From Muribaculaceae bacterium (GTDB lineage Bacteria; Bacteroidota; Bacteroidia; Bacteroidales; Muribaculaceae): DNA of 64,000 nucleotides. Shown here piece after piece: positions 34,547-37,796 of this stretch (position 1 is the stretch's first letter; each line of letters begins with the position of its first letter). Location: contig JAFTRI010000006.1 of assembly GCA_017462345.1 (NCBI GenBank), forward strand, positions 1-64,000. The letters are read 5' to 3'. The notes beneath the pieces were generated by a model. The model did no database searches, was not told where the DNA came from, and saw only the letters and a program-made list of their open reading frames with translations. Made by a program: the position numbers and the translations under genes.

Positions 34547-34991
34547 TCAGCATATTCCCGACATCATGCCGTTGAGCCTGACGGCAAAATACCCGCTATC
34601 GGGCAGGACTATCTCGCTGTTGTGCATGAGTACCGACCTGTGGAGCAGGATTCCTCCAAGGCTATAGACCTCCACGACCGTTCCGGGTGCTACTCCGGTC
34701 ACCTCTTTTCCGTAGATAGCATAATACATGGTTACGACGCTATCCGGCAATGACAACGGCGATGACAAACCGTCCGCCTTTTTCCGTGAAGACATAATAG
34801 GGAGGATTTCCTTGCTCCGGGGCGTCCGACAGCATTCTGCTCTCCAATGCCTGGGCATCTGACGGCAGTACCGTCATGGCAATGGCACGGGCGAGCCCGC
34901 GATCCACCGGAGCCGCATTGCCGGATACCGACACGAATACCACCACTGCCAGCACCAATGCATATAACTTTCCACACATCTTCATCTGCAA
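34547..34991 (-). pseudogene. Relic of a secreted C10-peptidase-like T9SS cargo
   Basis: The 5' part (34991-34740) encodes a signal peptide (GKLYALVLAVVVFVSVSGNA) and then the start of a Spi/C10-type propeptide: ARAIAMTVLPSD, YYVFTEKGGRFVIAVV. Streptopain-like proteins continue at this point with VSGDD and a cysteine-protease domain, but here a TAG stop follows. In an overlapping frame (about 34760-34547) the reading continues as VVTMYYAIYGKEVTGVAPGT, VEVYSLGGILLHRSV and ILPDSGYFAVRL-like sequence. That is a T9SS C-terminal sorting domain. The enzymatic middle has been lost and the two ends joined out of frame. Confidence 0.65.
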
Positions 34992-35116: not shown

Positions 35117-35400
35117 AAATGAAAAGGCGTGCAACCACTCTTTACTTGTGACTCATTTAGGTTACCGCCAAGTTACCTTTTCTCCCACAAGCAAAGGACA
35201 GTTCACGCCTGTAGACGCGAACTTAAGCCTGCTTGTTCTTGGAGATTGAATGATTGGCGGTATTCAAATGAGTAAGAACAAGAGCCTGAAGCTCATCAGT
35301 ATGTGTTATTCTGTTTAGTAGAGTGGAGACGTATTTTCGGTTTGAGAATAAATTACTAATCACTTTGTGGATTCGGATTTCTCTCCGGTAATCTCCGATA
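35117..35400 (-). ncRNA. Candidate structured RNA of unknown family
   Basis: This 464-base gap contains nested complementary segments spaced up to 190 bases apart. Listed as plus-strand coordinates, P1 is 35135-35141 with 35320-35326 (plus 35144-35146 with 35317-35319). P2 is 35151-35158 with 35266-35273 (8 pairs). P3 is 35163-35171 with 35254-35262 (9 pairs). P4 is 35181-35185 with 35241-35245. P5 is 35187-35193 with 35230-35236. The apical hairpin is 35201-35208 with 35215-35222. A side hairpin is 35275-35281 with 35306-35312, capped by 35282-35285 with 35291-35294. Two positions pair as G-U only if the minus strand is the transcript (they would be A-C on plus), so minus is favoured. The 3' end runs into TTTTCATTTTT. 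It lies downstream of purN. I see no tmRNA, RNase P or SRP signature. A 5'-side hairpin (35373-35379 with 35390-35398) may also belong. Confidence 0.55.
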
Positions 35401-35455: not shown

Positions 35456-36019
35456 TTATTTAAGTAAATTTTCTATTACCGTCGGGTAATGCGCGTGTTC
35501 AAGAGCGTGGACACGGTTGGCGAGTGTCTCGGGGGTATCGACGGGCTCGACGGGACATTTTGCCTGAAATATGATCTCTCCGCCGTCAATTTCCTTTGTG
35601 ACATAATGTACCGTTATGCCACTTTCCTTTTCACCCGATGCGATTACCGCCTCATGCACATGATGCCCCCACATTCCGGCACCGCCGAATTTAGGCAACA
35701 GCGACGGATGGATATTGACAATCCTGCCGGAAAAAGCCTCGATTATGGGCGCTTCGACCCGGCACAGGAATCCGGCGAGCACGACAAAATCGACCGCCTC
35801 CCGCATAAGGATGTCCACAACCGCACTTCCGTCATTCCACAATTCACGCGGGACGGTCTCGGTCCTTACTCCGAGTGCAGCCATTCGGGAATGGACACCG
35901 GCCTTTTCCCTATTGGAGAGCACTATCGCCACTCTGGCGGCACCGCTACCGGCAAAATAACGGACAATCGCCTCGGCGTTTGAGCCCTCCCCCGATGCAA
36001 GAACGGCAATGTTTTTCAT
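35456..36019 (-). CDS. purN: Phosphoribosylglycinamide formyltransferase
   Basis: A 187-residue enzyme of purine synthesis that formylates GAR using 10-formyl-tetrahydrofolate. KNIAVLASGEGSNAEAI starts the phosphate-binding N-terminus. Catalytic residues lie in VNIHPSLLPKFGGAGMWGHHVHEAV and in GITVHYVTKEIDGGEII (the conserved Asp). Length is normal. It lies 21 bases downstream of purB on the same strand, so the two purine genes are probably one operon. Its stop codon borders the structured-RNA region. Confidence 0.93.
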   Translation of the reverse strand: MKNIAVLASGEGSNAEAIVRYFAGSGAARVAIVLSNREKAGVHSRMAALGVRTETVPRELWNDGSAVVDILMREAVDFVVLAGFLCRVEAPIIEAFSGRIVNIHPSLLPKFGGAGMWGHHVHEAVIASGEKESGITVHYVTKEIDGGEIIFQAKCPVEPVDTPETLANRVHALEHAHYPTVIENLLK

Positions 36020-37579: not shown

Positions 37580-37654
37580 GGGCGTTTAGCTCAGCTGGTT
37601 CAGAGCATCTGCCTTACAAGCAGAGGGTCGGCGGTTCGAATCCGTCAACGCCCA
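37580..37654 (+). tRNA. tRNA-Val (anticodon TAC), copy 1
   Basis: A 75-base cloverleaf: acceptor GGGCGTT with AACGCCC and discriminator A; D-arm TAGCTCAGCTGGTTCAGAGC; anticodon stem TCTGC/GCAGA with loop CTTACAA, so the anticodon is TAC (valine); T-arm GGCGGTTCGAATCCGTC. No CCA is encoded. Confidence 0.95.
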
Positions 37655-37721: not shown

Positions 37722-37796
37722 GGGCGTTTAGCTCAGCTGGTTCAGAGCATCTGCCTTACAAGCAGAGGGTCGGCGGTTCGAATCCGTCAACGCCCA
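37722..37796 (+). tRNA. tRNA-Val (anticodon TAC), copy 2
   Basis: Identical over all 75 bases to the copy at 37580-37654, including the loop CTTACAA. The 67-base spacer between copies has no separate promoter, so the two are presumably processed from one transcript ending at the terminator at 37806-37835. Confidence 0.95.

Follow-up and report, generated by a model that had tools for sequence, protein, structure and literature searches.

The minus strand of the window (the whole 64,000-nucleotide stretch of Muribaculaceae DNA that was analysed) carries one copy of a real, widespread family of structured RNAs that is found across several phyla, and which is apparently unlisted in Rfam 15 and in the open-licence literature. 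The sequences of the family point to two mutually exclusive folds, both of which are conserved and whose pairing sets are backed by covariation; modelled on these pairings, the RNA appears to have a choice of two shapes, one being a terminator ('off') and the other an 'on' structure. It is probably a riboswitch-like attenuator, and we consider it likely that it acts in cis, as a 5' leader whose attenuation governs how far the next gene is transcribed.

Distribution of the family and the copy in the window

A DNA search found matches in 7/61 genomes, the window's own genome included. Covariance model R1, built from six copies, matched in 32/148 genomes (with the top 18 candidates scored per genome), and model R2, built from 38 copies, matched in at least 37 of 296 genomes sampled from the phylum, the other 259 having none (top nine candidates scored in each); as so few candidates were scored per genome, absences in both surveys are weak. 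The own genome holds at least 13 copies, comprising 12 places detected by R2 (E ≤ 0.001) and one detected by R1 (C20:70338). Within about 60 nt after a full copy in this genome (L223, C27:44075) lies a fragment like part of another copy, GGCATCTGAAAAATCGCCAATTT, and at a different locus (L066) a second, weak R2 match at 669-792 precedes the main one by some 0.5 kb. A strict pattern was found in at least 120 stretches of named genomes, 80 of which were listed. Judged by record title, 69 of those listed look to be from Bacteroidota; five of the other 11 belong to deltaproteobacterial or Desulfobulbaceae/Thermodesulfobacteriota MAGs, and one each to Ignavibacteria, Kapaibacterium, Lentisphaeria, Kiritimatiellae, a Clostridium MAG and Glaciecola amylolytica. 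The MAG-based phyla could reflect mis-binning; the Glaciecola chromosome is complete. R2 confirmed the RNA in 17/17 genomes chosen from the pattern listing, as expected for genomes picked for a pattern match, and placed 13 copies in Bacteroides muris and seven in the Ignavibacteria MAG. In the viral collection only one stretch carried the strict pattern, whilst one copy used as a query matched nothing in the phage collection and gave two short Serratia plasmid matches in the plasmid collection.

The loci compared below were pooled from 64 of the 71 places listed for R1 (two reverse-strand matches and five copies from genome G052 being left out) and the 80 listed of the at least 120 pattern stretches; three repeats were dropped to give 141 rows, and removal of five duplicate places left 136 distinct loci. 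In all of the tests the related copies are non-independent, and the control pairs of the swap test described below serve as the guard against this.

The window copy occupies 35117..35294 (minus strand), with its 5' end near 35294 and the end of its U-run at 35117, as delimited by R1, R2 and the z-score of the fold. Minus-strand folding of 35117-35400 gave a z-score of -5.53, which 0/200 shuffles equalled, vs -2.28 on the plus strand, where 4/200 shuffles were as good; the minus-strand core (35122-35300) gave -5.29. R1 matches the copy at 35122-35298 (E 8.8e-27, the copy being within its training set), and R2, for which the copy was outside the training set, matches at 35122-35294 (E 6.7e-7). 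The copy possesses all the structural parts of the family. An earlier note, made from the sequence of the window, had recognised a structured RNA on the minus strand that bears no hallmark of a known family and has a U-rich 3' end. The orientation and the end (35117-35125) are correct, no Rfam family reaches gathering score in the gap, and two stems that it named (35151-35158/35266-35273 and 35163-35171/35254-35262) are exact complements within the same arm of the minus-strand MFE fold. Of the gap that the note covered, 35117-35400, the conserved RNA takes up 35117-35294 (about 178 nt), and 35295-35400 lies mostly outside it, except for about 35299-35314. The note had also suggested that the RNA could be of this lineage, which the copies in several phyla contradict. 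The covariance-model search and comparison of homologues that the note proposed revealed covariation and returned no Rfam 15 match at gathering score.

Upstream of the RNA lies a gene that the earlier note named purN (35456..36019, minus strand; Pfam Formyl_trans_N, E 2.6e-41), and this adjacency looks incidental, the inspected loci showing other neighbours by eye. The gene after the RNA is split into two ORFs in different frames within 34547-34991 (minus strand) and looks broken. The first, 34740..34991, has a signal-peptide-like start by eye and a sub-threshold Pfam match to Inhibitor_I69 (Spi-inhibitor; E 0.0012), and apparently represents the start, now broken, of a gene led by the RNA; the second, 34547-34858, matched nothing in Pfam at E 0.1 or better. 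Ahead of the window copy there is no recognisable promoter box, including the TAnnTTTG box, which we take to be the Bacteroidetes -7 promoter element. This copy looks weak; it may be decaying, or may be read through from purN, and its function is doubtful. The weight of the finding rests on the family and not on the window copy. Elsewhere in the window, tandem tRNA genes with identical scores are found at 37580-37654 and 37722-37796 (plus strand).

Conserved pairings and alternative folds

The elements of the RNA are arranged from 5' to 3' as S1, P5a, hpI (with P5b in its loop), Q5, S2, S3, Q3, hpII (with P3b in its loop), P3a, S4 and the U-run, and all coordinates that follow are for the minus strand of the window. 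S1 (35274..35294), with the 5' hairpin GAGC...GCUC, is the alternative partner of S2 (35214..35240), as indicated by the swap test and RNAalifold, and S2 pairs with either S1 or S3. S3 (35186..35209) pairs with S2 as the antiterminator or with S4 (35126..35150), the 3' arm of the terminator hairpin, as the terminator. The 3' half of the window RNA (-36.3 kcal/mol) is a long, nearly continuous hairpin, which is followed by the U-rich terminator tail UUUUCAUUU (35117..35125). The junction arm has P5a (35264..35273) as its outer strand, the partner of which is P3a (35151..35159), as indicated by the swap test and by positional pair counts in 78 loci. The side hairpin hpI (35248..35265; GAAU-ACCGCCAAUC-AUUC) holds P5b at 35254-35262 and has modest support; hpII (35160..35177; GGU-AACUUGGCGGUA-ACC), which is supported by covariation, holds P3b at 35163-35171, complementary to P5b. 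Between them, Q5 (AUCUCC, 35241..35246) pairs with Q3 (GGGAGA, 35181..35186) in the window fold, and the corresponding segments of other copies are complementary by eye.

The pairings were assessed by an alignment-free swap test, in which each copy's own duplex is compared with those formed by swapped partners, using 71 of the 80 pattern loci (seven without a run of four T and two exact repeats being left out). Own partners prevailed for S2:S3 in 71/71 loci, for S3:S4 and P5a:P3a in 70/71 each and for S1:S2 in 61/71; the control pairs S1:S3, S2:S4 and S1:S4 gave 23/71, 39/71 and 40/71. S2 and S3 hence each have two conserved partners, as is characteristic of a terminator coupled to an antiterminator. 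Two further stems from the earlier note fared less well. Its closing stem (35135-35141 with 35320-35326) can pair in the window copy, but the counterpart is not conserved, the sequence upstream of the RNA favouring its own S4 over swapped ones in 30/56 loci; its side hairpin (35275-35281 with 35306-35312) is not supported, its strand 35275-35281 being in S1, of which the conserved partner is S2.

In alignment A3, 93.4% of 2148 cells pair, both sides change in 30/32 modelled pairs and covariation is 0.502 vs 0.053-0.089 when slid; like A6, A3 is fitted to a model (R1) and includes training copies, and it also takes in some reverse-strand matches. The third pair of hpII, which lies outside the model, is U-A in 71 rows of A6, C-G in 17 and U-G in three; of the four off-pattern rows (4/95), two keep G-U, one (L193) reads CGU...ACG and one fits nothing. 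The P5b:P3b cells are Watson-Crick in 707 of 739, with one G-U and 31 other, and G-U is found in 143/740 S2:S3 cells. In the 80 pattern loci P5b, P3b and the flanking GAAA/GGUG hardly vary, because these loci were selected by P5b/P3b sequence. The weakest element of the structure is hpI: its full four-pair stem, formed by the bases flanking P5b, is present in 55/95 rows, compared with a mean of 39.7 and a maximum of 50 over 200 swaps.

RNAalifold on the six copies of alignment A2 returned the terminator conformer unprompted, with S1 paired to S2, and folding of single sequences yields the long arm. Two shapes fit the pairings, a simple nested arm or a four-way junction in which the side loops kiss, and which of them forms is a matter of inference. 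Over 71 loci the whole fold has a mean energy of -67.2 kcal/mol vs -54.9 for the halves, and is thus 12.3 kcal/mol more stable (secondary structure only, with no kissing term), so that some factor, or kinetic control, would be required for termination. In the window copy the energies are -65.5 kcal/mol for the whole and -24.3 and -36.3 for the halves, leaving the two states about 5 kcal/mol apart. A run of four T is absent from 7/78 distinct pattern loci (105 nt being scanned after the junction), and the junction has few conserved unpaired bases, fewer than is typical for an aptamer. A general pairing of S4 with a segment S5 past the U-run was dropped (68/118 loci); in one class of loci, the AAG class, segments after the U-run that are complementary to S4 are enriched (19/66 in the best tenth), and such a segment, e.g. 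GGGACU in L028, L057 and L123, is perhaps a lock for the read-through state.

Sequences upstream and genes downstream

Ahead of the RNA, the motif ACATN (where N is A, T or C) occurs within 25 nt of the first hairpin in 72/120 loci, compared with 8/120 for a control window. In the window copy this region is the conserved, apparently unpaired stretch ACAGAAUAA-ACACAUAC (35299..35314, minus strand), the class motif of which was read by eye as ACAGAAAUAA...ACAUA. The TAnnTTTG box peaks 60-80 nt before the RNA, where 38 of 76 occurrences over 130 nt are located (118 loci). In the AAG class, an AUG followed by zero to two codons and a stop is found in 48/71 loci, vs 14.9 in shuffles (sd 3.6; the highest of 100 being 24), and an in-frame stop lies within three codon slots of 53/71 ATGs, with 13 and 13 in the other frames. 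GCCUAUG and ACAUAU had been considered as promoter parts and were dropped, the frame test indicating the mini-ORF instead. The window copy is a member of the GAGC class, which is without the mini-ORF (4/42 vs 3.5 in shuffles) and carries ACAGAAAUAA in its place.

The nearest downstream ORF (minimum 60 aa) is co-directional with the RNA in 114/128 loci, and the upstream gene in 67/124, as counted among the 136 distinct loci; the remaining 14/128 downstream ORFs are oppositely oriented, and some of these exceptions look spurious by eye. Of 115 same-strand ORFs near the RNA end, 69 are signal-peptide-like by a simple rule, 19 encode small helix-turn-helix (HTH) proteins and 27 are neither, although one of the latter (L148) is also HTH by eye; amongst upstream genes (minimum 100 aa), which served as the control, 9/101 have signal-peptide-like starts. 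The targets are mostly surface or secreted proteins together with small XRE-like DNA-binding proteins. A Pfam scan, which covered 103 of the 115 downstream proteins, identified 74 families, led by leucine-rich repeats (BspA type, LRR_8), WG repeats and T9SS sorting tails with four members each; such diversity gives no clue to a ligand. The HTH proteins were mostly missed by Pfam, with HTH_26 in 2/103 and no match for L002 or L017; their start codons often lie directly at the U-run.

Proposed attenuation, rival readings and known RNAs

In the first of two proposed conformers, S1 would pair with S2 and leave S3 free for S4, and the S3:S4 hairpin with the U-run would act as an intrinsic terminator to keep the gene off. 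In the second, S2 would pair with S3 and the flanks would close a four-way junction (P5a:P3a, hpI, Q5:Q3, hpII) that may be locked by the complementary loops of hpI and hpII (P5b:P3b); S4 would then be free, no terminator would form and the gene would be on. We infer the switching in cells, the default conformer and the trigger alike. As our best guess, the junction and kissing domain would be recognised, in the manner of a riboswitch, by a bound protein or a diffusible signal; ribosomes close to the 5' end may provide an input as well in the class that has the start-stop mini-ORF.

A purely ribosome-gated attenuator, in which a ribosome at the AUG-stop mini-ORF chooses between S1:S2 and S2:S3, would account for the enrichment and frame bias of the mini-ORF in the AAG class (48/71 and 53/71), but this is unlikely: the mini-ORF is missing from the class of the window copy, and a ribosome at its AUG, 26-59 nt ahead of the first hairpin, would probably leave S1 uncovered. 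Less probable still is that the family consists of multicopy trans-acting sRNAs, the terminated RNA of about 180 nt being the product and loop P5b or P3b pairing with targets or with other copies. Its own U-run terminator, the abundance of paralogues (13 copies in B. muris) and a P5b:P3b pairing that is nearly free of G-U (1/739) and differs among copies within one genome, as for address-like loops, would all suit such an RNA; set against these are the strong co-orientation with the next gene, the theme among those genes, the HTH-group start codons that are often at the U-run, and the different build described for the Bacteroides FopS sRNAs.

That the copies are a mobile palindromic DNA element (a MITE or an attC-like single-strand site) with no RNA function is very improbable. 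Many dispersed copies, a long imperfect palindrome and the weak matches of the reverse strand to the model in some copies are what such an element would show, but divergent copies retain compensations, G-U is abundant in S2:S3, the RNA is polarised towards the next gene and ends in a terminator, and the strict pattern is all but missing from the viral collection (one stretch); no arrays were noticed by eye in the loci inspected. The 6S-like RNA that the earlier note had offered can practically be dismissed. The long imperfect arm and the length of about 180 nt recall 6S RNA, but the family counts 13 or more members in the own genome, sits as a leader ahead of co-directional genes and has conserved terminator/antiterminator alternatives, and RF00013 had no match in that genome, in a search whose control matched in 5/14 genomes. 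RF01685 likewise had no match in the own genome, a result that is uninformative since its control search matched nowhere, and neither model matched in the window.

Attenuation in cis, the preferred reading, invites comparison with known leaders. Purine, lysine and cobalamin riboswitches are 5' leaders with loop-loop contacts, and the present RNA shares with them the leader position, a junction whose side loops are predicted to kiss and a putative intrinsic terminator as output, but differs in a loop pair that is strictly complementary and freely drifting, and in its very diverse targets. Attenuators of the trp type use alternative 1:2, 2:3 and 3:4 pairing; the alternative-pairing logic and U-run terminator are alike, whereas no leader peptide enriched for a single amino acid was seen in the present RNA, which has the P5:P3 junction arm in addition. 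The mini-ORF, with zero to two varied codons after its AUG in one class only, is not enriched in a sensed residue. T-box and classic amino-acid attenuator assignments were dropped, the loop sequences drifting freely and no residue-rich leader ORF being seen; 6S, tmRNA, RNase P and SRP RNA were dropped for want of an Rfam match in the gap.

None of the 41 copies that were scanned against Rfam 15 (the window copy and 12, 8 and 20 further loci) had a match on the RNA that reached gathering score, and in the window gap up to E 10 only a Caenorhabditis snoRNA and a microRNA family appeared, at E 1.5 and 8.7, i.e. by chance. An overlap with ctRNA_p42d in L218 (25.8 bits vs 50; E 0.25) is likewise at chance level. 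DUF805b (RF02914, a cis-regulatory motif of about 35 nt), which lies between the RNA and the gene in L070 (E 1.4e-4, below gathering score), is a separate short motif; its sub-threshold matches near gene starts are at 1453-1491 in L070 and 2698-2732 in L030, and L030 also has a Group II intron domain match at 208-283.

Among RNAs of the same bacterial group, FopS is described as a single-stranded 5' stretch with one terminator hairpin (9/14 intergenic sRNAs; PMC11697453). FopS and GibS resemble the present family as multicopy Bacteroidaceae RNAs ending in an intrinsic terminator (PMC11697453); the present RNA is, unlike FopS, an elaborate leader ahead of genes, a distinction drawn from the published description of FopS. 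Flavo-1, Bacteroidales-1, Bacteroides-1 and GUCCY-hairpin are computed Bacteroidetes RNA motifs (PMC2864571). The first three, which are numbered in Rfam, have no match to the scanned copies, and GUCCY-hairpin, which has no Rfam number, falls outside that comparison. Flavobacterium psychrophilum has 64 structured 5' regions, some without an Rfam match, and some of these may be members of the family. The 6S RNA of Bacteroides is described separately, and prior work was also drawn from PMC2965389, PMC11109978, PMC8632094, PMC9723704 and PMC7366714. No mention of the RNA was found in search listings from an open-licence library.

It is also possible, if on balance doubtful, that a signal-sensing leader class spanning several phyla directs an entire programme of the cell surface: kissing loops, strictly Watson-Crick and specific to each copy, would lock the four-way junction and tip the switch, the mini-ORF would be a second, ribosome-based input in one class, and the loop pairs may also serve as addresses between leaders of the same genome. 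If the reading as a cis-acting attenuator holds, a leader RNA that some gut Bacteroidota carry in a dozen copies or more has been overlooked, and many genes for surface proteins, secreted proteins and small regulators would be under one kind of control, providing a testable handle on envelope switching in these bacteria. A conserved leader would also be joined by a start-stop mini-ORF of bacterial origin, and nature would have supplied a collection of complementary loop pairs whose evolution passes through hardly any G-U intermediates.
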